Below are positions 22,591 through 31,864 of a stretch of DNA of 64,000 bases, piece after piece. A program made the translations under genes and the position numbers. The DNA is from Gimesia sp. Lineage in GTDB: Bacteria; Planctomycetota; Planctomycetia; Planctomycetales; Planctomycetaceae. The stretch is taken from NCBI GenBank assembly GCA_002706765.1, contig PAJV01000076.1:62001-126000 (forward strand), read 5' to 3'. Within the stretch, counting starts at the first letter, position 1; every line of letters begins with the position of its first letter. The notes beneath the pieces were generated by a model. It was not told where the DNA came from. It did no database searches and worked only from the letters and a program-made list of their open reading frames with translations.

Positions 22591-22636
22591 CGCAGACCAT
22601 GTCGGGCACCGTGCCATTCTCGGTCTGAGCAGACGC
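22591..22636 (-). repeat. 46-bp dispersed repeat, copy A (downstream of valS)
   Basis: Read on the minus strand it begins at the first base of the valS stop codon and shares about 35 of 46 bases, ungapped, with copy B at 25714-25759. The conserved core reads GAATGGCACG followed by TG, CCGA and ATGGTC. This copy holds an inner GGCAC/GTGCC palindrome and outer CAGACC/GGTCTG arms. Confidence 0.6.
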
Positions 22637-25560
22637 TATTTTCCCTCGAGTTCATCGATAGTTTTCAGAACGCTTTGCAGTTGTTTCTGATTCCCTGCCA
22701 GCGTTTCCTGTACTCCAGCTACCACATCGGCGGGTGCCCGGTCAACAAAGTTTTTATTGGCCAGTTTCTTCTCACTGGTTTCAATATGTTTTTCGAGTTT
22801 TTCCGCTTCTCCCCGCAATCGCTCCAGTTCCGCCTCCAGATCGATAATGCCTTCCAAAGCAATAAAGCCGTCAACATCATTGAGAGAAAATGTGGCAGAC
22901 CCGCTGGGGCGTTGTATATCCGCGCCCGCTGACTCCAGTAAGGTTTTCGCCAGATTATCGAACTGTCCGGCGATATTCTGCATGTCATCGGCCACACCGG
23001 ATTCACAACGCAGGAACAGTTGCAGCGGTACTGCGGGTGAAATCTTATAGACAGCACGAATATTTCGCACGGCAACAATCATTTCCTGCAGCCGTTCAAA
23101 CCGTTTTTCCAGTTGCGGATCCTGCCACTCCTGTGGTGGTTCCGGCCAGGCGGCGATCATGATGCTTTTGGCCCCTGTTGCGGGTGTGAAGAGCCCGCGT
23201 TCCGGCGCGATCTCATTCAATCGCTGCCAGAGTTCTTCGGCAATGAAGGGGACGAAAGGCTGCAGCAGACGGAGCAGGGCGTCGAGCACTCCTACCAACA
23301 CGCGCTGTGCTGCCGGTTTCTGTTCCTCGTCCCACAATCGAGGCTTGATCATTTCCAGGTACCAGTCGCAGAATTCGTTCCAGGTAAAGTCGCGAATGGC
23401 GCGAGTGGCCACGTCGAACTGGTAGCGATTTAAGACGGTTGTCATCTCTTCGGCAACCGTGGAAAGTCGACTGAGAATCCAGCGATCTTCCATTGTCAAA
23501 TCAGACTCTGCGAGCGGCGCCGGGGTGTAACCTTCCAGGTTGAGCATGGCAAAGCGACTGGCGTTCCAGAGTTTGTTGCAGAAATTTCTGCCGTACTCAA
23601 AACGTTCGCTGACAATCCTCGCCACTTTTTCGCCGGGATCAGGATCAAACCAGGGACTCGTATACTGGTACGATTTTCCACTTTTGGGGAATTTGATTCG
23701 TGGTTTAGCACCGCCTGAGGGAGTCGTTGTCTGATGTTCCAGAGTTTGAGGCACGACTTCCCCGGTTTCCGGGTCTTCGTAACCGACAGGCAGACGGACG
23801 TCCTGTGTTTCCCCTGCGAAAGAGGCAATCGTGAAGCGGACTGCATCGACGCCGTATTTGTCGATCAGGTCCATGGGGTCCACGCCGTTCCCTTTGGATT
23901 TGGACATGGTCTGCCCGAAACCATCCAGGATTTTAGGATGGATGCAGACATGCTTGAAGGGGATGTCTTCCATGTTATACAGGCCGGTCAAAACCATGCG
24001 CGCCACCCAGAGAGTGATGATATCGCGACTGGTGATCAGCACACTGCCTGGATAGAAATAATCGAGATCCGGATTCTTGTCAGGCCAGCCCAGCGTGGCG
24101 TGCGGCCAGAGGGCACTGCTGAACCAGGTATCCAGGACATCTTCATCCTGGGTCAACTTATGAGCGGCACCCAGTTCGTCACCCGCCAGGTCGGTTTCGC
24201 TGCAGATCAGCCAGCAGGTATCTTCATCGTCCCGGCGGTAATCGACGTCATAACGATCGGCAAATGCCAGTTTCAGGTCGTCTTCAGAACAGGTGTCGCA
24301 GTACCAGATGGGAATACGATGTCCCCACCAGAGTTGTCGACTGATGCACCAGTCGCGCTTTTCTTTGAGCCAGTCCAGATATGTTTTGGAGTAGCGGCTG
24401 GGAAAGAAACGCACGCGGCCGTCATCGACAGCATCGATGGCAGACTGCGCGAGGGTATCCATTTTTACGAACCACTGGTCAGACAGATAAGGTTCAATGG
24501 GAGTTTTCGAACGGTCGCTGTGCTTGACGGGGATCTGCCGGTCTTCCACTTCGATGAAGAAGCCCAGCTTTTCCATGTCTTCGACCACTTTTTTACGGGC
24601 GGCGTAACGATCCAGGCCTTCATATTCACCGGTAGCGTCATTCATCGTGCCATCGGGGTTCAGAATGTTGATCTGCTCCAGATCATTTCGCAGTCCGCAG
24701 GCATAGTCGTTCGGATCATGCGCGGGGGTGACTTTGACGGCTCCGGTTCCCAAGTCTTTATCTGCCAGTAAGGCATCGGCAATAATCGGGATCTCACGTC
24801 CGTTTAATGGAATGCGAACGAATTTACCGACCAGGTGCGTGTAACGCTCATCGGAAGGATGAACGCAGACAGCGGTATCGCCGAGCATCGTTTCGGGACG
24901 CGTGGTTGAGAATGAAATCCGTTCCTCACTGCCGACCACCGGATACTGGAAGGTCCAGAACTGACCGGCAATATCTTCTGAGAAAACTTCATCGTCTGCG
25001 ACTGCGGTCTGCAGGAACGGGTCCCAGTTCACCAGGCGTTTCCCACGATAGATCAAACCGTCTGAGAACAGCTTCAGGAAGGTGCGGCGGACCGCTTTGG
25101 AGCACATGTCATCCAGTGTAAAGCGGGTGCGCTGCCAGTCACAGCTGGCGCCCAGTTTTCTCAGCTGATTCAGAATGCGTTTTTCGTACTGGTCTTTCCA
25201 GTCCCAGATCCGTTCGACGAGCGCTTCGCGACCGATGTCATGCCGTGTCAGATTTTCTTCTTCCTTCATGCGGCGTTCGACCACAGCCTGGGTGGCAATG
25301 CCGGCATGATCGGTTCCGGGCATCCAGAGGGCTTCATAGCCCTGCATGCGACGCCAGCGGGTTATCAGGTCCTGCAGCGTGCCGTTCAACGCATGGCCCA
25401 TGTGCAGGGCACCGGTGACGTTGGGCAGAGGGATCATGATGGTATGCGGTTCTTTTTCCGGATCAGGCTCGGCGTGAAAATAGCCGTTTTCTTCCCAGAA
25501 CTGATACCACTTCTGTTGTGCACTTTCAGGATTATACTGTTTCTCTAACGATTCGGTCAT
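22636..25560 (-). CDS. valS: Valyl-tRNA synthetase
   Basis: ValS charges tRNA-Val. From ATG 25560 the product is about 974 residues; an in-frame GTG at 25620 is unlikely to be used. PNVTGALHMGHALN carries the class I HIGH signature and MSKSKGNGVDP the KMSKS signature. The editing domain (DAVDDGRVRFFPSRY region) lies between them, and the C-terminal coiled-coil arm (LEAELERLRGEAEKLEKHI) is ValS-specific. An insertion of about 58 residues (plus coordinates about 23612-23785) sits between the catalytic core and the anticodon-binding domain (YGRNFCNKLWNASRF). It follows cimA on the same strand, both serving branched-chain amino acids. No T-box was recognised upstream. Confidence 0.97.
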   Translation of the reverse strand: MTESLEKQYNPESAQQKWYQFWEENGYFHAEPDPEKEPHTIMIPLPNVTGALHMGHALNGTLQDLITRWRRMQGYEALWMPGTDHAGIATQAVVERRMKEEENLTRHDIGREALVERIWDWKDQYEKRILNQLRKLGASCDWQRTRFTLDDMCSKAVRRTFLKLFSDGLIYRGKRLVNWDPFLQTAVADDEVFSEDIAGQFWTFQYPVVGSEERISFSTTRPETMLGDTAVCVHPSDERYTHLVGKFVRIPLNGREIPIIADALLADKDLGTGAVKVTPAHDPNDYACGLRNDLEQINILNPDGTMNDATGEYEGLDRYAARKKVVEDMEKLGFFIEVEDRQIPVKHSDRSKTPIEPYLSDQWFVKMDTLAQSAIDAVDDGRVRFFPSRYSKTYLDWLKEKRDWCISRQLWWGHRIPIWYCDTCSEDDLKLAFADRYDVDYRRDDEDTCWLICSETDLAGDELGAAHKLTQDEDVLDTWFSSALWPHATLGWPDKNPDLDYFYPGSVLITSRDIITLWVARMVLTGLYNMEDIPFKHVCIHPKILDGFGQTMSKSKGNGVDPMDLIDKYGVDAVRFTIASFAGETQDVRLPVGYEDPETGEVVPQTLEHQTTTPSGGAKPRIKFPKSGKSYQYTSPWFDPDPGEKVARIVSERFEYGRNFCNKLWNASRFAMLNLEGYTPAPLAESDLTMEDRWILSRLSTVAEEMTTVLNRYQFDVATRAIRDFTWNEFCDWYLEMIKPRLWDEEQKPAAQRVLVGVLDALLRLLQPFVPFIAEELWQRLNEIAPERGLFTPATGAKSIMIAAWPEPPQEWQDPQLEKRFERLQEMIVAVRNIRAVYKISPAVPLQLFLRCESGVADDMQNIAGQFDNLAKTLLESAGADIQRPSGSATFSLNDVDGFIALEGIIDLEAELERLRGEAEKLEKHIETSEKKLANKNFVDRAPADVVAGVQETLAGNQKQLQSVLKTIDELEGK

Positions 25561-25713
25561 GATTTCGGGTTGGGTCTTGTGCTTTAAGGCATGGTTAAAA
25601 TGGAGAAATTGATCTGCCACAAAATAGCTGGATTTCCGTTATTTAAACTAACTATTGGTCCATCAATCCTTTCTTGACAGGTGGTCAATGTCAGGCGAGC
25701 ACGCCAATGAGCG

Positions 25714-25869: not shown

Positions 25870-27444
25870 TCAGCCTGAAATGGTTCCTTCGTCCTTGTAG
25901 AGTTTGTATTCGACGCTGTCTGCCAGTGCGAGCCAGCTGGCTTCGATCACATTTTCACTGACGCCGATACTGCTCCAGACCTTGTGTTCATCGCGGCTTT
26001 CAATCACCACCCGCACACTGGCGGCGGTTCCCTCAGCGGAATTGATCACGCGGACCTTGTAGTCGACTAAGTGCATTTTTTCGAGAGCAGGATAGGCAGG
26101 GCAGAGTGCTTTTCTGAGTGCCGTATCGAGGGCATTCACCGGCCCGTCGCCTTCGCCGACCACGTGTTCCTGCTGACCGTTGACGATCAGTTTGATCGTC
26201 GCTTCGGTGAGAGGTTCGTGTGTATTGTCGGATTCGACATTCACGCGATAATGAATTTTTTCGAAATGAGGTTTGAACGTACCGGCAACTTTTTTGACGA
26301 GCAGATCAAAGGACGCTTCGGCGGCTTCAAACTGGTAACCTTCATTTTCCAGATCCTGCACTTTTTCGAGAATCCGTGTGAGCAGTTCCGGATCGTTATC
26401 CAGCTGCATCTTGGTTGTTTTTGCGACGATGTTGGAACGTCCCGACAACTCACTGACCAGCACTTTGCGTTCGTTGCCGACGACTTCGGGTTCGATATGT
26501 TCGTAACTGCGTGCAATGCGATTGACGGCGTGCACATGCATGCCCCCTTTATGGGCGAAGGCGCTGCTGCCGACAAAAGGCTGACCGGAACGGAAATTCA
26601 TGTTGGCCAGTTCGTAAACATAGCGTGAGAGTTCGGTCAGTTTATGCAGGTTGTTATCCAGCAGGACGGAATAACCTTCTTTTTTCGTCACCAGGTTGGC
26701 GATCACGCTGATCAGATCGGCATTGCCACAGCGTTCCCCGATCCCGTTAATGGTTCCTTGAACCTGGATGGCACCATGTTCGATCGCGGCTAAGGAATTG
26801 GCGGTCGCCAGATCACAGTCGTTGTGACAGTGAATTCCCAGGGGCACGTTTACTTCAGAGCGCACGAGGTCGACATATTTCGCAATCACTTCGGGCAGAC
26901 TGCCGCCGTTCGTATCGCAGGGAATGACGATGTCTGCGCCCGCCTCGGCAGCCGCTTTGATGGTTTTGAGTGCATATTCCGGATTCGCACGAAAGCCGTC
27001 AAAGAAATGCTCTGCATCGTAAATGACTTCGCGTCCGCAGGATTTGATAAAGCCGACCGAATCTGCAATCATCGCCAGATTTTCTTCGAGTGAGACCCGC
27101 AGGACTTCGGTGACGTGCAGGTCCCAGGTTTTTCCCACAATGGTGACCACGGGGGCCTGTGAATCCCGTAACGCCTGCATGCCGACATCGTCTCTGGCTT
27201 CGATCTCTTTGCGGCGGGTCATGCCGAATGCGGTGACTTTAGCGTGCTTCAGATCCATTTCGGCCACACGCTGGAAATACTCGGTGTCTTTGGGATTCGA
27301 AAGAGGATAGCCGCCTTCAATGTAATCGAAGCCCATTTCATCGAGCTTTGCGGTTATCTGCAGCTTGTCTTCCAATGAGAAGTTCACGCCTTCTCCCTGG
27401 CTGCCATCCCGCAAAGTGGTGTCATACATCTGAATTCGGGCCAT
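25870..27444 (-). CDS. cimA: (R)-citramalate synthase
   Basis: CimA condenses acetyl-CoA and pyruvate to citramalate, the threonine-independent entry to isoleucine. The 524 residues begin with the TIM-barrel signature MYDTTLRDGSQGEGVNFS, followed by GFDYIEGGYP and the metal-binding IHCHNDCDLATANSLAA, then GTINGIGERCGNADL. A C-terminal regulatory (LeuA-dimer type) domain follows, with the small-molecule-binding portion from about residue 390. Length and motifs fit CimA better than 2-isopropylmalate synthase. Transcription is very likely controlled by the isoleucine-rich leader and terminator immediately upstream (27555-27692), which supports an isoleucine role. valS follows downstream. Confidence 0.93.
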   Translation of the reverse strand: MARIQMYDTTLRDGSQGEGVNFSLEDKLQITAKLDEMGFDYIEGGYPLSNPKDTEYFQRVAEMDLKHAKVTAFGMTRRKEIEARDDVGMQALRDSQAPVVTIVGKTWDLHVTEVLRVSLEENLAMIADSVGFIKSCGREVIYDAEHFFDGFRANPEYALKTIKAAAEAGADIVIPCDTNGGSLPEVIAKYVDLVRSEVNVPLGIHCHNDCDLATANSLAAIEHGAIQVQGTINGIGERCGNADLISVIANLVTKKEGYSVLLDNNLHKLTELSRYVYELANMNFRSGQPFVGSSAFAHKGGMHVHAVNRIARSYEHIEPEVVGNERKVLVSELSGRSNIVAKTTKMQLDNDPELLTRILEKVQDLENEGYQFEAAEASFDLLVKKVAGTFKPHFEKIHYRVNVESDNTHEPLTEATIKLIVNGQQEHVVGEGDGPVNALDTALRKALCPAYPALEKMHLVDYKVRVINSAEGTAASVRVVIESRDEHKVWSSIGVSENVIEASWLALADSVEYKLYKDEGTISG

Positions 27445-27554
27445 CGTCGGGGCTTTCTTTTCTGTTTTAATTGAAAGATCACGCTTGTTATCGTGTCTGC
27501 TGCTATTCTTTTCAGACCATCGCAGGGCAGGGCTTGATTCGTCCTGATCTCCAT

Positions 27555-27586
27555 AACAAAAAAACCTCAGGTTGTGACCTGAGGTT
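27555..27586 (-). terminator. Attenuator terminator hairpin (3:4) before cimA
   Basis: A perfect 10-bp stem AACCTCAGGT/ACCTGAGGTT (27563-27572 and 27577-27586) with a four-base loop, followed on the minus strand by seven T residues. It lies 34 bases after the leader peptide stop and about 110 bases before the cimA ATG. Its 5' arm (CTCAGGTC as read on minus) can instead pair with GACTTGAG at the leader stop codon, giving an antiterminator. Confidence 0.85.
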
Positions 27587-27620
27587 ATGAAAATCTGTTA
27601 AATTGGTAATGATTCTCAAG

Positions 27621-27692
27621 TCATGGGGAGTCTGTAATTTCGCCAATAATAATAATGCCGCTGATGCAGACAATATTTGAGACAGACAACAT
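27621..27692 (-). CDS. Isoleucine-rich leader peptide of the cimA attenuator
   Basis: A 23-codon ORF, ATG 27692 to TGA 27621. Isoleucine codons are at positions 7, 10, 13, 14, 15, 16 and 19; the run at 13-16 is four consecutive ATT codons. AGGT lies three bases and GGAAGG about eleven bases before the ATG. The stop overlaps segment 2 of the attenuator (GACTTGAGA on minus). Segment 1 (TCTCAGGTC, plus 27694-27702), just before the ATG, can pair with segment 2; segment 2 can pair with segment 3 in the terminator's 5' arm; segment 3 pairs with segment 4. Stalling on the Ile run would leave segment 2 free and allow readthrough into cimA. The sequence is seen directly; the mechanism is inferred from classical amino-acid operon attenuation. 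Confidence 0.85.
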   Translation of the reverse strand: MLSVSNIVCISGIIIIGEITDSP

Positions 27693-27738
27693 AGACCTGA
27701 GAGCCTTCCGCTTGAATTGCTATTTTGAATCACAAACT

Positions 27739-27744
27739 GTCAAT
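27739..27744 (-). promoter_or_regulatory. Candidate -35 of the cimA leader promoter
   Basis: A perfect TTGACA on the minus strand at 27744-27739. No strong -10 is present at 16-18 bases; AGCAAT or TAGCAA are weak candidates. A start near 27711 would include all four attenuator segments. Confidence 0.35.
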
Positions 27745-27843
27745 GGAAAGATCATAAGCAGCCGGGAAGTGTGAGTCAAACGAAAAGCCGATTTCGCCCT
27801 GTTTTCAGGTCAGATTCCCTGCGAAGCAGCAACGGCCTGAGGC

Positions 27844-30147
27844 TCAAACAAACTCTTCTTCGTATTCTTCTTCGCCGAAATCGTCTTCGAACTGGTTTGC
27901 TTTGATCGCTTCCCACTCATCGATAGTGTATAAAACTTCACGTGCCTGTGAGCCGTTATATTCACCGACGATGCCATCTTCGGCCATGTAATCAATCAAT
28001 CGGGCACCACGACCGTAGCCGACTCCCAATGCCCGTTGCAGCAGGGAAACAGAACCGCGACCTTCACGGATCACAACATCGACTGCTTCATTGTACAGGC
28101 TGTCTTCTTTGCGGTCCGAGTCGCCACCATTATTTTTCTTGGAATTGGCGGCAGTGATCTGTGCCAGTTCCGGGCTGTATTCGGGAGCCATGTCACTGAA
28201 GAAGTCGATCACACGCTCGATTTCTTCATCACTGACATACGCGCCCTGGGCCCGTGTCAGTTTACTGGTTCCTGGTGCCAGGTACAGCATGTCACCGTTG
28301 CCGAGCAGGGCGTCTGCACCGTTTTCATCCAGAACCACACGGCTGTCGCCGCGGCTGGCAACCTGGAATGAAATGCGGGCAGGCAGGTTGGATTTAATCA
28401 GACCGGTAATCACGTCGACCGTTGGCTTCTGCGTTGCCAGCACCAGGTGAATTCCGACAGCACGGGATTTTTGTGCCAGACGAATAATATGTGCTTCGAC
28501 ATCTTTGCCGGAGGTCATCATCATGTCGGCAATCTCATCGGCGACGATGACGATCGAAGGCATTTTTTCCGGCATTTGCAGTGCTTCTTCCGATTCCGGA
28601 TCAATGCCCGCCAGTTCCAGCACTTTTTCCTTGCCGAGTTTATTGAAGCTTTCGATGTTTCTGGATCCGCAGCGGGCCAGGAGGTCGTAACGTTCTTCCA
28701 TCTTGTCGACGGCCCATGCCAGCACGGCTTCCGCTTTTTTCATGTCGGTGATCACGGGATGCATCAGATGCGGAATGCGTTTGTAGCCGCTCAATTCCAC
28801 CATCTTGGGATCGATCATCAGCATTTTGACTTCGTTGGGGGTGCGGGTCATCAACAGTGAGAGAATCAATGTGTTGAGACAGACACTTTTCCCGGTTCCG
28901 GTTCGACCGGCGATCAACAGGTGAGGCAGTTTGGCCAGGTCGGCTGACAGGGGATGCCCGCTGACATCTTTGCCTATGAACAGGGGAATGCGACTGTGTT
29001 CCGCTTCGTCCGAACAGGCTTCGATCAGTTCTTTTAACCGCACCATGACTTGTTTGTCATTGGGAACTTCAACGCCAACCGTATTTTTTCCGGGGATGGA
29101 AGGCACCACCCGTACGGAAGGCACACGTAAAGCAACCGCCAGGTCATGAGCCAGAGCGGTGACTTTGGCAACACGCAGACCCGGTTTCAGATCCAGTTCG
29201 AACAAGGTCAATACCGGGCCGGTATCGATTTCGGAGACCTGAATGTCGAGTCCAAAATCAGCAAATGTATTTTCGAGAACTTCGGCTGCTTCTTCCGCTT
29301 TTTTGGCTAACAGCTCGAAAGGAAAGTCTTCTGCATCTTCCAGCAGGTCTAACCCGGGCAGCTTATATGAGCTGTTTTTTTTTTGCTCGATGGGCTGAGT
29401 CTTTTGCGCCAGGCGAATTCCTGCCGGCGGATTGACTTTGATCGGCTTGCGCTTCTTGGGCTTTAATTTTGCTTTAGGAGCGGCGACAACTTCTTCTTCG
29501 TACTCGTCTTCCTCTTCTTCGGCGACGATTTCTTCTTCCTCTTCGTATTCTTCTTCGTCACTTTCTTCTGCTGCTTCATCCACAACAACCGATTCACGGC
29601 TCAAGGCTTTGAAGGGAAAGGTGAGGCAGGAAAAAAAGAGGCGTACGGGAAGCGTATCTGCTGTCAGTAACAGACCTGCCAGGAACATGGAGGTCAACAG
29701 GATCAACGAACCGGCGACGGAAAATCGGGTTTCCAGTAATGAAAAACCGAGCGCACCAATATAGCCACCGCTGCCAATCAGTGGCGTGGCGTTATTTTGG
29801 CCCAGCATCATCTGGCTGACAATACAGGCAGAAAGCAGAATCAAACCCAGGCCAATCAGTTCGACCACGACGCCGGAAGTTTCCTGTCGGGAAAACATCC
29901 GCATGTCGACTACGATTAATGCGAGGAAAATTCCCCAGGCACCGAGGCCGAAACCGGTTCGCAGGTAATGGGCTATTTGAGCACCGGAGTCACCACACAG
30001 GTTTTGTGCGACATCACGGACGGGGTAGACGAGCTGCGCAGGGGGATCGGCGGGGTCATAGCTGAATAGACTCAGTCCAAGAAAGACTGTCGCCGCCAGC
30101 AATCCCAGCGCGATTAAATCTGTTTTGAACCGTTGAATGTCGATCAT
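27844..30147 (-). CDS. ftsK: DNA translocase FtsK/SpoIIIE
   Basis: FtsK pumps chromosomal DNA at the division septum. From ATG 30147 the protein has 767 residues; a TTG at 30156 is an alternative start. Four or five N-terminal membrane helices (about residues 10-175) precede a highly acidic, Glu-rich linker of about 40 residues and a Lys/Pro-rich patch. The motor has Walker A AGRTGTGKSV near residue 413 and Walker B IVIVADEIADMM. The C-terminal gamma winged-helix (VVIREGRGSVSLLQRALGVGYGRGARLID) recognises orienting KOPS-type sites. The variant P-loop (GRTGTGKS rather than GATGSGKS) keeps all essential residues. This is a full division-linked translocase in a phylum whose members generally lack FtsZ (family knowledge). 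Confidence 0.95.
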   Translation of the reverse strand: MIDIQRFKTDLIALGLLAATVFLGLSLFSYDPADPPAQLVYPVRDVAQNLCGDSGAQIAHYLRTGFGLGAWGIFLALIVVDMRMFSRQETSGVVVELIGLGLILLSACIVSQMMLGQNNATPLIGSGGYIGALGFSLLETRFSVAGSLILLTSMFLAGLLLTADTLPVRLFFSCLTFPFKALSRESVVVDEAAEESDEEEYEEEEEIVAEEEEDEYEEEVVAAPKAKLKPKKRKPIKVNPPAGIRLAQKTQPIEQKKNSSYKLPGLDLLEDAEDFPFELLAKKAEEAAEVLENTFADFGLDIQVSEIDTGPVLTLFELDLKPGLRVAKVTALAHDLAVALRVPSVRVVPSIPGKNTVGVEVPNDKQVMVRLKELIEACSDEAEHSRIPLFIGKDVSGHPLSADLAKLPHLLIAGRTGTGKSVCLNTLILSLLMTRTPNEVKMLMIDPKMVELSGYKRIPHLMHPVITDMKKAEAVLAWAVDKMEERYDLLARCGSRNIESFNKLGKEKVLELAGIDPESEEALQMPEKMPSIVIVADEIADMMMTSGKDVEAHIIRLAQKSRAVGIHLVLATQKPTVDVITGLIKSNLPARISFQVASRGDSRVVLDENGADALLGNGDMLYLAPGTSKLTRAQGAYVSDEEIERVIDFFSDMAPEYSPELAQITAANSKKNNGGDSDRKEDSLYNEAVDVVIREGRGSVSLLQRALGVGYGRGARLIDYMAEDGIVGEYNGSQAREVLYTIDEWEAIKANQFEDDFGEEEYEEEFV

Positions 30148-30626: not shown

Positions 30627-31253
30627 TTATGTGCCTGCCAGATGATGCTGAATCCATTCGATCAGAGAATCCGCCACCCGGGACTTTTCTCCCGAGTAAG
30701 TGGCTACGATCTCCTGGCTCTGGTCGATCACTTCGACGAAGTTTTCGGAAGACCCGATGGCACTCACACTGTTGAGTACGATGGCATCGCATTTTTTACT
30801 GTAGAGTTTGCGCACCGCATTAAAGCGGGCGTCCTGAGATTCCAGTGCGAAGCCCATGACCCAGCGATCCCCTTTCTGGGTACCCAGTTCTGCCAGCACG
30901 TCGATCGTTTCCACCAGTTCCAGGGTGATCGCTTCACCGGTTTTAGCGATTTTACCAGGTTTGCGGGTTTTGATCCGATAGTCGCAGACCGCAGCAGTGC
31001 CGATCACGCCATCACAGTCTGCGAACAGCGTTTCGCATTGCGCGAACATCTCATCTGTCGTCTCGACCTGGTACAGCTCACATCCGGCAGGAGGGGCAAT
31101 GGTGACAGGACCAGAGACCAGCGCGACTTCATGGCCGGCGGCAATCGCAGAGCGGGCCAATGCGTATCCCATCTGCCCGCTGCTCGCATTGGAGAGGTAG
31201 CGAACGTCATCCAGGTATTCTCTTGTCGGGCCGGCTGTGATCAGGATTCGCAT
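30627..31253 (-). CDS. coaB: Phosphopantothenate-cysteine ligase (stand-alone CoaB domain)
   Basis: CoaB joins cysteine to 4'-phosphopantothenate in coenzyme A synthesis. From ATG 31253 the protein is about 208 residues; a TTG at 31268 is possible. The CoaB start RILITAGPTREYLDDVRYLSN, then SSGQMGYALA (nucleotide-binding), the central ETTDEMF, AAVCDY and a C-terminal VLNSVS (dimer/substrate strand) are all seen. In most bacteria this domain is fused to CoaC in one CoaBC (Dfp) polypeptide. Here the two are separate genes, with coaC 50 bases upstream on the same strand. Confidence 0.9.
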   Translation of the reverse strand: MRILITAGPTREYLDDVRYLSNASSGQMGYALARSAIAAGHEVALVSGPVTIAPPAGCELYQVETTDEMFAQCETLFADCDGVIGTAAVCDYRIKTRKPGKIAKTGEAITLELVETIDVLAELGTQKGDRWVMGFALESQDARFNAVRKLYSKKCDAIVLNSVSAIGSSENFVEVIDQSQEIVATYSGEKSRVADSLIEWIQHHLAGT

Positions 31254-31303
31254 TTGAGGATCATTCAAAGGATGGGTTCGAAGCAGGGCAGTACGGTTTC
31301 GAA

Positions 31304-31864
31304 TTACCCCAGCAGTTCATTGATTCGGGTTAAGATCTCTGCCGGTTCTGCCATCCGTCCTTTACCGATCACGCCACAACTCAGCCAGCCTTCTCCTGGT
31401 TCTACGATCTGGATTCCATCGGCCTGCAGCTGTTTCAGATTTCGCTGAACCGATGCCTTGGCCCACATATCCGCATTCATAGCCGGTGCCAGCAGAATGG
31501 GTGCAGTGCAGGTCAGTGTCAGGGTCGAAAGCAGATCTTCCGCGAAACCATGCGCCATCTGGGCCATCACGTTGGCAGTCGCCGGCGCAATGACAAACAG
31601 TTCGGCTCTTCTGACCAGGCCGATATGTTCTCCCTGAAAATGTTCCCGGGGGGAAAACCCATCCTGGTAGACGGGACGGCCCGTGAGGGCTTCGAAAGTG
31701 GTCGCGCCAATGAATTTCTGCGCGGCCTGTGTCATTACCACGCTGACGGCTGCCCCTTGCTGGACCAGCTTGCTGGTCAGGTCAGCCGTCTTGTAGGCGG
31801 CAATTCCTCCAGAAACACCTACTAGAATTTCACGCCCCTGCATGGGTTGGTTTTTGGTGTTCAT
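31304..31864 (-). CDS. coaC: Phosphopantothenoylcysteine decarboxylase (stand-alone CoaC domain)
   Basis: CoaC is an FMN-dependent decarboxylase making 4'-phosphopantetheine. The 186-residue protein has the flavoprotein start [21 protein letters not shown], the active-site-type histidine segment [42 protein letters not shown] and the substrate-clamp cysteine region ([16 protein letters not shown]). These belong to the decarboxylase half of Dfp; the ligase half is the next gene. It starts 17 bases after rpoZ stops, within a gmk-rpoZ-coaC-coaB cluster matching the gmk-rpoZ-dfp order common in bacteria. Confidence 0.92.

Follow-up and report, generated by a model that had tools for sequence, protein, structure and literature searches.

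The gene cimA, whose product carries out the first committed reaction in making isoleucine from pyruvate, is preceded in the window (the whole 64-kb stretch of DNA analysed here) by a short isoleucine-rich ORF and by a hairpin followed by a run of T. This raises the question of whether cimA expression is set by the level of charged Ile-tRNA. The enterobacterial attenuators of ilvGMEDA (ilvL), ilvBN (ivbL), leu (leuL), and trp combine a short ORF containing cognate codons, a terminator, and an antiterminator arm near the stop codon. The cimA leader likewise has a short ORF with cognate codons, a terminator before the structural gene, and an antiterminator arm near the leader stop. It differs from the enterobacterial attenuators in its target and phylum, and in its outer protector arm, which is located upstream of the ORF and not within the control codons. 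Judged from its sequence, the leader is very probably a ribosome-mediated (classical) transcription attenuator responding to charged Ile-tRNA. An earlier note on this DNA had made the same core claim, and comparison between genomes supports it strongly: by conservation in all 16 cimA-bearing genomes of the genus, by the distribution in the phylum, by the match between leader residue and gene, and by co-variation.

The features of the locus are listed in Table 1. A leader ORF of cognate codons, as predicted by translation, lies before cimA; a terminator between leader and gene and an upstream promoter were recognized by sequence match. The leader contains seven Ile and two Val codons, with four Ile consecutive at codons 13–16.

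Table 1. Features of the cimA leader and its surroundings in the window.
Feature	Position	Strand	Basis or remark
Sigma-70-like promoter (predicted), TTGACT-17-TATGAT	27751..27779	-	sequence match; conserved in the genus
Putative transcription start	~27744	-	from promoter-like site
Shine-Dalgarno-like GGAAGG, 11 nt 5' of leader ATG	27704..27709	-	sequence; relatives not all identical
Segment 1, TCTCAGGTC, outer 5' arm of 1:2 (protector) hairpin	27694..27702	-	pairing count
Leader ORF, 23 codons, MLSVSNIVCISGIIIIGEITDSP, then stop	27621..27692	-	translation; open in 16/16 genus genomes
GTCTGT, inner 5' arm of 1:2 hairpin	27682..27687	-	UA to CG double change in 4/16 genomes
ATT x4, predicted stall site (codons 13–16)	27645..27656	-	DNA invariant in 16/16 genomes
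ACAGAC, inner 3' arm of 1:2 hairpin	27630..27635	-	covariation, RNAalifold
Segment 2 with stop codon (TGACTTGAGA), 5' arm of antiterminator	27614..27623	-	pairing in the genus and between lineages
Segment 3 (CTCAGGTC = 27583-27576), 3' arm of antiterminator and most of terminator 5' arm	27575..27583	-	
Intrinsic terminator hairpin, segments 3:4 (predicted)	27563..27586	-	sequence match, terminator scoring
Seven-T run	27558..27564	-	sequence
cimA, (R)-citramalate synthase	25870..27444	-	TIGR00977, 696.7 bits vs cut-off 450
valS, valyl-tRNA synthetase, next same-strand gene	22636..25620	-	NF004349, 1116.1 bits vs cut-off 704
ftsK, upstream gene	ends 27844	-	same strand, about 257 nt before hairpin

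The ORF with its seven Ile codons, four of them in a row, had been described in the earlier note together with the positions of the pairing segments, and all of these were confirmed. This includes the overlap of segment 2 with the leader stop: segment 2 proper (GACTTGAGA, 27622-27614) begins with the final two bases of the stop TGA (27623-27621), and the 2:3 helix comprises 9 bp once the U of the stop codon is counted. Two details had to be corrected. Both the 10-bp terminator stem and the seven U are present, but they share two bases, so that either 8 bp are followed by 7 U or 10 bp by 5 U. The proposed 1:2 pairing is also there as an outer helix (segment 1/segment 2), but a second, inner helix of GTCTGT (27687-27682) with ACAGAC (27635-27630), which brackets the Ile codons, had been missed.

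In 200 dinucleotide-shuffled versions of the window's own region (locus L001), an equally Ile-rich ORF never appeared at the same place. When the whole 64 kb was scored for terminators at a threshold of 24, the cimA-leader hairpin was the sole match on the minus strand, with three on the plus strand. The fold of positions 27744-27540 had a z of -2.71, and 1 of 200 shuffles was equally good. Elsewhere on the minus strand of the window, CoaBC is split into a decarboxylase ORF (31304-31864) and a ligase ORF (30627-31268).

Protein-search relatives from the window's genus comprised 17 genomes, 16 of which contained a cimA-grade match; none was found in G006, a genome that is 76% complete. The alignment of cimA upstream regions suggested in the earlier note revealed the Ile-run ORF and the terminator in all 16 cimA-bearing genomes. 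The frame ends at the same stop in each of them, and each has ATT ATT ATT ATT. The terminator has one extra base in L010 and lacks the innermost pair in L014 and L015. Both promoter hexamers and their 17-nt spacing (TTGACT-17-TATGAT) are likewise present in 16 of 16. Mean column identity is 98% from the stop to the terminator, 90% in the ORF, and 71% in the 5' UTR; this ranking, with the stop-to-terminator stretch conserved best, is expected if selection acts on RNA pairing and not on the peptide sequence. No protein-level constraint was seen in the genus leader, in which codon changes were non-synonymous in 24 cases and synonymous in 11, and variable columns numbered 10, 7, and 10 of 22 at the three codon positions. 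The covariation test of the stems, also suggested earlier, was favourable in part: the 1:2 hairpin displayed modest covariation, but the 2:3 helix does not vary in kind within the genus and gave no covariation evidence.

From the observed anatomy and conservation, the gene-matched amino acid, and the between-lineage co-variation, we infer the transcription start, leader translation, stalling, termination, readthrough, and the response to isoleucine. RNA polymerase would start near 27744, and a ribosome would begin the 23-codon leader. With Ile-tRNA charged, the ribosome would get to the UGA at 27623 and cover segment 2; segment 3 would then pair with segment 4, and transcription would end near 27558. 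With Ile-tRNA scarce, the ribosome would stall in the ATT run (27656-27645), leaving segment 2 free to capture segment 3; the terminator would not form, and the polymerase would read into cimA. If the leader is not translated, the 1:2 hairpin could hold segment 2, a pairing predicted to be strong in the window's species and variable in its relatives.

The hairpin could also be read as doing no more than terminating the ftsK operon upstream, with the Ile-rich ORF as a chance reading of the spacer. The gene ftsK shares its strand with the hairpin and ends at 27844, which agrees with this, as does locus L022, where a terminator precedes cimA without an Ile leader. Against it stands the promoter-like site located between ftsK and the hairpin in all 16 cimA-bearing genomes of the genus, and the comparison beyond the genus described below bears on the same point.

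Loci L031–L110 of this comparison are the best 80 of 588 relatives, those closest to the cimA of the window; 50 genomes were fetched of the 56 with a cimA-grade match, and of later family matches only the best 30. Three loci were dropped: L031 and L032, whose upstream regions are identical to those of L010 and L015, and L102, with 26 nt upstream. Clade labels of L033–L110 were read from record titles, and f-numbers of families were assigned automatically. The window's genus was counted once in the composition, antiterminator, arm-swap, 1:2, codon, and leuA composition tests. The antiterminator, arm-swap, 1:2, and codon tests used the ORF richest in Ile and Val and omitted loci having only one Ile or none; no such preselection was made in the composition scan or the fixed rule.

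The composition scan took the best terminator within 520 nt and then the ORFs ending 10–60 nt before it, irrespective of amino acid. L019 was left out, having too little sequence before the terminator, though an Ile leader is visible there. Among the matches listed, 113 cimA loci were scanned (the genus once), 63 with a terminator and enough sequence and 50 without. The maximum number of Ile per leader ORF in these 63 regions (among the matches listed) averaged 4.29, versus 0.74 in 200 dinucleotide shuffles (z 29.2). Ile was the most enriched of the 20 residues before cimA among the matches listed, followed by Val (z 13.6) and Ala (9.2), with Leu at 3.7; taken singly, 44 of the 63 listed regions were Ile-enriched at p ≤ 0.05. 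ORFs with at least four Ile occurred at 63.5% of cimA terminators versus 2.9% of the 35 terminators found elsewhere in these loci (mean 0.69 Ile), again among the matches listed.

A fixed rule required three or more Ile among the final 25 codons and a stop 10–90 nt ahead of a terminator. Counted after removal of four loci from already included genomes, it was passed by 85 of 153 cimA regions among the matches listed versus 3 of 3060 shuffles. The 68 of 153 listed regions that failed include every region of family f2 (six) and every one from Omnitrophota (seven). By group, the rule was passed in 16/16 regions of the genus, 14/17 of other genera of the family, 20/32 of f3, 1/2 of f4, 2/3 of f5, and 0/6 of f2; by record title, among the matches listed, in 23/44 of other Planctomycetota, 5/10 of Phycisphaerae-type, 3/4 of Desulfobacterota-type, 0/7 of Omnitrophota, and 1/12 of other phyla. 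Since the automatic terminator finder overlooks imperfect hairpins (that of L044 was recognized by eye), 85/153 may be an undercount. In ten loci that fail the rule, no ORF lacking a terminator had four or more Ile among its final 25 codons. The reading of the hairpin as an ftsK terminator with a chance ORF is highly improbable in view of the Ile enrichment (z 29) and the shuffle counts (85/153 versus 3/3060, among the matches listed), together with the conserved promoter-like site and the leuA leaders described below, which have Leu instead of Ile; it was rejected.

Some leaders have peculiarities of their own. The cimA leaders of L094, L099, and L106 (titled Deltaproteobacteria, Desulfobacterales, and Desulfobacteria) share a conserved end, GIIISLLPAGGLVMA and stop, before the terminator; this fixed tail hints at a constraint on peptide or RNA besides the Ile codons. 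The terminator lies 70 nt beyond the end of the Ile leader in L059 (titled Rhodopirellula sp.; SPSIISRVSGIVGQH and stop) and 83 nt beyond it in L060 (Stieleria sedimenti; QPVIICRVPGTVCQR and stop), a longer distance than most loci have.

The antiterminator was assessed both within and beyond the genus. In the genus, 99.4% of the 2:3 pair cells are formed, compared with 10–50% after sliding by one to three columns. Unguided RNAalifold of the genus alignment did not return 2:3 but a small hairpin 3' of the stop, along with the terminator. In the per-locus test, the search was set to start 12 nt 5' of the stop. Among the matches listed, the stop region paired with the terminator 5' arm of its own locus better than 95% of self-shuffles at 38 of 57 loci (median p 0.03), and 19 of the 57 failed singly; a strand shared by antiterminator and terminator at the leader stop is thus supported locus by locus in the former and not in the latter. 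The best antiterminator segment started between -12 (the search edge) and +9 nt of the stop at 56 of the 57 listed loci. When arms were swapped between the 69 loci tested among the matches listed, the mean energy was -15.55 kcal/mol for own and -11.88 kcal/mol for swapped arms, and none of 5000 permutations reached the own value. Stop-codon bases take part in this pairing at 37 of the 69 loci, and the leader stops (36 TGA, 23 TAG, and 10 TAA among these listed loci) vary along with the paired arms, e.g. TGAGG/CCTCA in L030, L034, and L038 and TAGGGC/GCCCT in L073, L076, and L107. Between lineages, then, the antiterminator co-varies with the terminator at the level of sequence.

The protector hairpin gave a less uniform picture. 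All nine pairs of the outer helix occur in two of the 16 genus genomes (the window and L009), and six to eight pairs in the other 14. Within the genus, 89.2% of 1:2 cells are paired versus 28–53% after sliding. The covariation score was 0.171 versus a shuffled mean of 0.136, with 0 of 500 shuffles as high, and five cells were double-changed (also 0 of 500); these measures can be inflated by relatedness. Two other measures, pairs changed on both sides (2 vs 1.0) and further pair types (8 vs 7.0), were each matched by 103 of 500 shuffles. Unguided RNAalifold of the genus recovered the inner stem along with the final three pairs of the outer one, with four co-varying pairs in the whole structure. 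Together, the aligned sequences point to modest covariation of 1:2 in the genus. The phylum-wide signal is weak: p ≤ 0.05 was obtained at 12 of 69 loci among the matches listed (median p 0.43), though own arms paired better than swapped ones (z -4.2).

Folding of the transcript up to the end of segment 3 was used to model the ribosome states; here 1:2 covers every pair that segment 2 makes with RNA 5' of the Ile run, and the folds are equilibrium ones, while real attenuation is kinetic. Segment 1 and the inner 5' arm are located upstream of a stalled ribosome, and segment 1 is even upstream of the leader start codon, so that it would not be masked by a ribosome at codons 13–16. The claim that stalling there exposes segment 2 held if upstream RNA was excluded: with the ribosome on the Ile run, 2:3 averaged 0.96 over the 16 genomes and was 0.78–0.79 in the window. 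It did not hold for the window if pairing round the ribosome was allowed: 2:3 averaged 0.64 over the genomes but fell to 0.00–0.06 in the window, where 1:2 won and segment 2 was bound to upstream RNA at 0.87–0.95. A ribosome at the stop abolished 2:3 in all 16 genomes, but this is a direct consequence of the footprint assumed and not an independent result. In the untranslated state, 1:2 exceeded 2:3 in 7 of 16 genomes, including the window (0.94), and not in the other 9. The claim that lack of translation leads via 1:2 to termination may thus apply to the window's species but, judging from these folds, not in general. The modelled contrast between a ribosome stalled at Ile and one that has reached the stop is plausible. 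In the same models, the strong segment 1 of the window complicates the switch instead of helping it, and this segment is the weak part of the model proposed in the earlier note.

Translation of the Ile leader might also matter otherwise than through a 2:3 versus 3:4 switch, namely by Rho access, mRNA stability, or nascent-peptide arrest. The weak phylum-wide support for segment 1 leaves some room for this, as do attenuator-like leaders of Streptomyces coelicolor that behaved non-classically (PMC1262725). This explanation is nevertheless improbable: the classical switch requires an intrinsic terminator and, at the stop, an antiterminator arm that co-varies with it, as seen here between lineages. 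Apart from Ile and Val, moreover, the leader peptides are highly divergent. That cimA is preceded by a riboswitch binding a ligand, or by a T-box, is barely conceivable, although the region does have a terminator and an alternative fold: no Rfam family reached its gathering threshold in the window, and region 27450-27850 had sub-threshold matches only (best 27.4 bits vs gathering 54, E 0.033), so this candidate was rejected. Ribosome reinitiation was rejected as well. Korolev et al. (PMC4833913) give about 10–16 nt between leader stop and structural start for reinitiating leader genes; 176 nt separate the end of the leader stop (27621) from the cimA start (27444).

Other biosynthetic genes served as controls for classical attenuation. 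The leuA leader of the same planctomycetes has the layout of the cimA leader, with Leu codons before the gene for isopropylmalate synthase. A leuA leader with terminator was present in 8 of nine genomes tested; the cimA Ile leader was found in 7 of the same nine and was absent from L022 and L126. In a wider set of 34 leuA loci, a terminator was present in 27. Each of these, 17 of which belong to the window's genus, had a leader ORF with four or more Leu among its final 25 codons and a stop 31–45 nt 5' of the intrinsic terminator. Over 11 leuA loci (the genus once), z was 13.6 for Leu, 4.3 for Met, 3.7 for Gly, 1.4 for Ile, and 0.0 for Val. The sequences thus indicate that the leader amino acid follows gene identity, Ile at cimA and Leu at leuA. 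The leuA of the window's own genome (G000:C10, locus L180, outside the window) has a Leu-rich leader ending in NLLNLSLLRNLLL and stop, with a terminator. The leuA layout was also seen in four of five loci of family f2, though 0 of 6 cimA regions of this family pass the Ile rule. No terminator with a leader was found at ilvB, trpE, or hisG in nine genomes each, and no cognate leader at ilvC in nine genomes, where one terminator lies 676 nt away with an unrelated ORF; since hisG, trpE, and ilvC may sit within operons, the absence of a leader there tells little.

Codon choice in the cimA leaders is also biased. Among the matches listed (57 loci), ATT accounts for 165 of 271 Ile codons versus 65.7 expected from the cimA of each locus, and the ATT fraction is above that of the own cimA in 56 loci and below it in one. 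Val codons are in excess too (GTA 25 vs 7.0, GTT 28 vs 15.0, among the matches listed). In the same listed leaders, codons of Ala, Thr, and Gly are shifted as well (GCT 26 vs 14.9, ACG 19 vs 36.2, GGG 37 vs 21.0); part of the ATT excess may therefore stem from leaders being under weaker selection for codon usage.

A refinement compatible with the isoleucine-responsive attenuator is a dual Ile/Val attenuator serving cimA and valS in place of a pure Ile sensor. A valS match was found in 82 of 140 cimA loci among the matches listed (two duplicates counted, some loci too short), in 79 of them on the same strand downstream, and within 600 nt of cimA in 69 of the 140 listed. The second rank of Val among the enriched residues (z 13.6, among the matches listed) and the Val-Ile clusters of Gemmata-like leaders also fit a dual sensor, which is a possible but rather unlikely form of the switch, the leader of the window having seven Ile versus two Val. 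No terminator was detected in the 249-nt gap between cimA and valS of the window even at a low threshold. Each of the seven Omnitrophota-titled cimA loci among the matches listed contains a valS match.

Peptide-based attenuation of branched-chain genes has been described in other bacteria. The ilvBNC attenuator of Corynebacterium glutamicum likewise concerns a branched-chain operon and has three candidate hairpins; its target is acetohydroxy acid synthase (PMC11857589), whereas an ilvB element was found in 0 of 9 planctomycete genomes. Actinobacterial ilvB and leuA leaders also have Ile/Val/Leu-rich upstream ORFs, with terminators before ilvB, but their LEU element is a proposed pseudoknot, unlike the cimA leader (PMC1262725). 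Leader-codon mutations at ilvB and leuA of S. coelicolor had no effect or one inconsistent with classical attenuation (PMC1262725), which calls for caution in reading the cimA leader as classical. The ilv attenuator peptide of Staphylococcus aureus is, as here, a case outside Proteobacteria and Actinobacteria; it is leucine-rich and acts beside CodY in Firmicutes (PMC5794164), whereas the cimA leader is Ile-rich. The authors of a 2010 survey knew of no leader-peptide attenuation demonstrated beyond Proteobacteria and Actinobacteria, the atypical ermC leader apart, and added cases from Firmicutes (PMC2965389). No planctomycete or cimA attenuator was recognizable in titles and abstract starts of the open-access PubMed Central papers searched, though an earlier mention is possible; this agrees with the earlier note, which knew of no description in Planctomycetes. 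Thus, the mechanism as such is the known, classical one, while the phylum and the cimA target are without a report found in the open-access papers searched. Leader-peptide attenuation would be extended to this phylum, and cimA gains a candidate regulator.

Classical attenuation requires a ribosome that translates the leader while the polymerase is still nearby. The cimA leader of Gemmata sp. IIL30 (L056) starts with GTG and ends in VAIIATVVVITTG; ACTTCGGGGTC after its stop faces the terminator arm ACCCCGAAG (antiterminator p 0.025). Leader and terminator are kept in L159 and L194 (upstream region = L124), with cimA DNA 91% and 84% identical; the antiterminator of L124 was not clearly better than shuffles (p 0.39). 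For Gemmata obscuriglobus, transcription and translation have been reported to occur apart (Gottshall 2014, as cited in PMC6212462 and PMC5394234), and the cell model behind this segregation proposal is disputed (PMC6554331). We consider it fairly probable that Planctomycetota including Gemmata run ribosome-coupled branched-chain attenuation (Ile/Val at cimA, Leu at leuA), with ATT, an Ile codon less used in the adjoining gene, chosen as if to tune the sensor. If so, selection on these switches would mean that the ribosome is close behind RNA polymerase on at least these transcripts, against the segregation proposal for Gemmata. Conservation of the leader sequences argues for coupling on these transcripts without proving it. 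As segregation has been proposed for Gemmata and the cell model is disputed, the L056 leader would offer a ready reporter test of coupling. The main value of the finding may be as a test of transcription–translation coupling in Gemmata-type cells.
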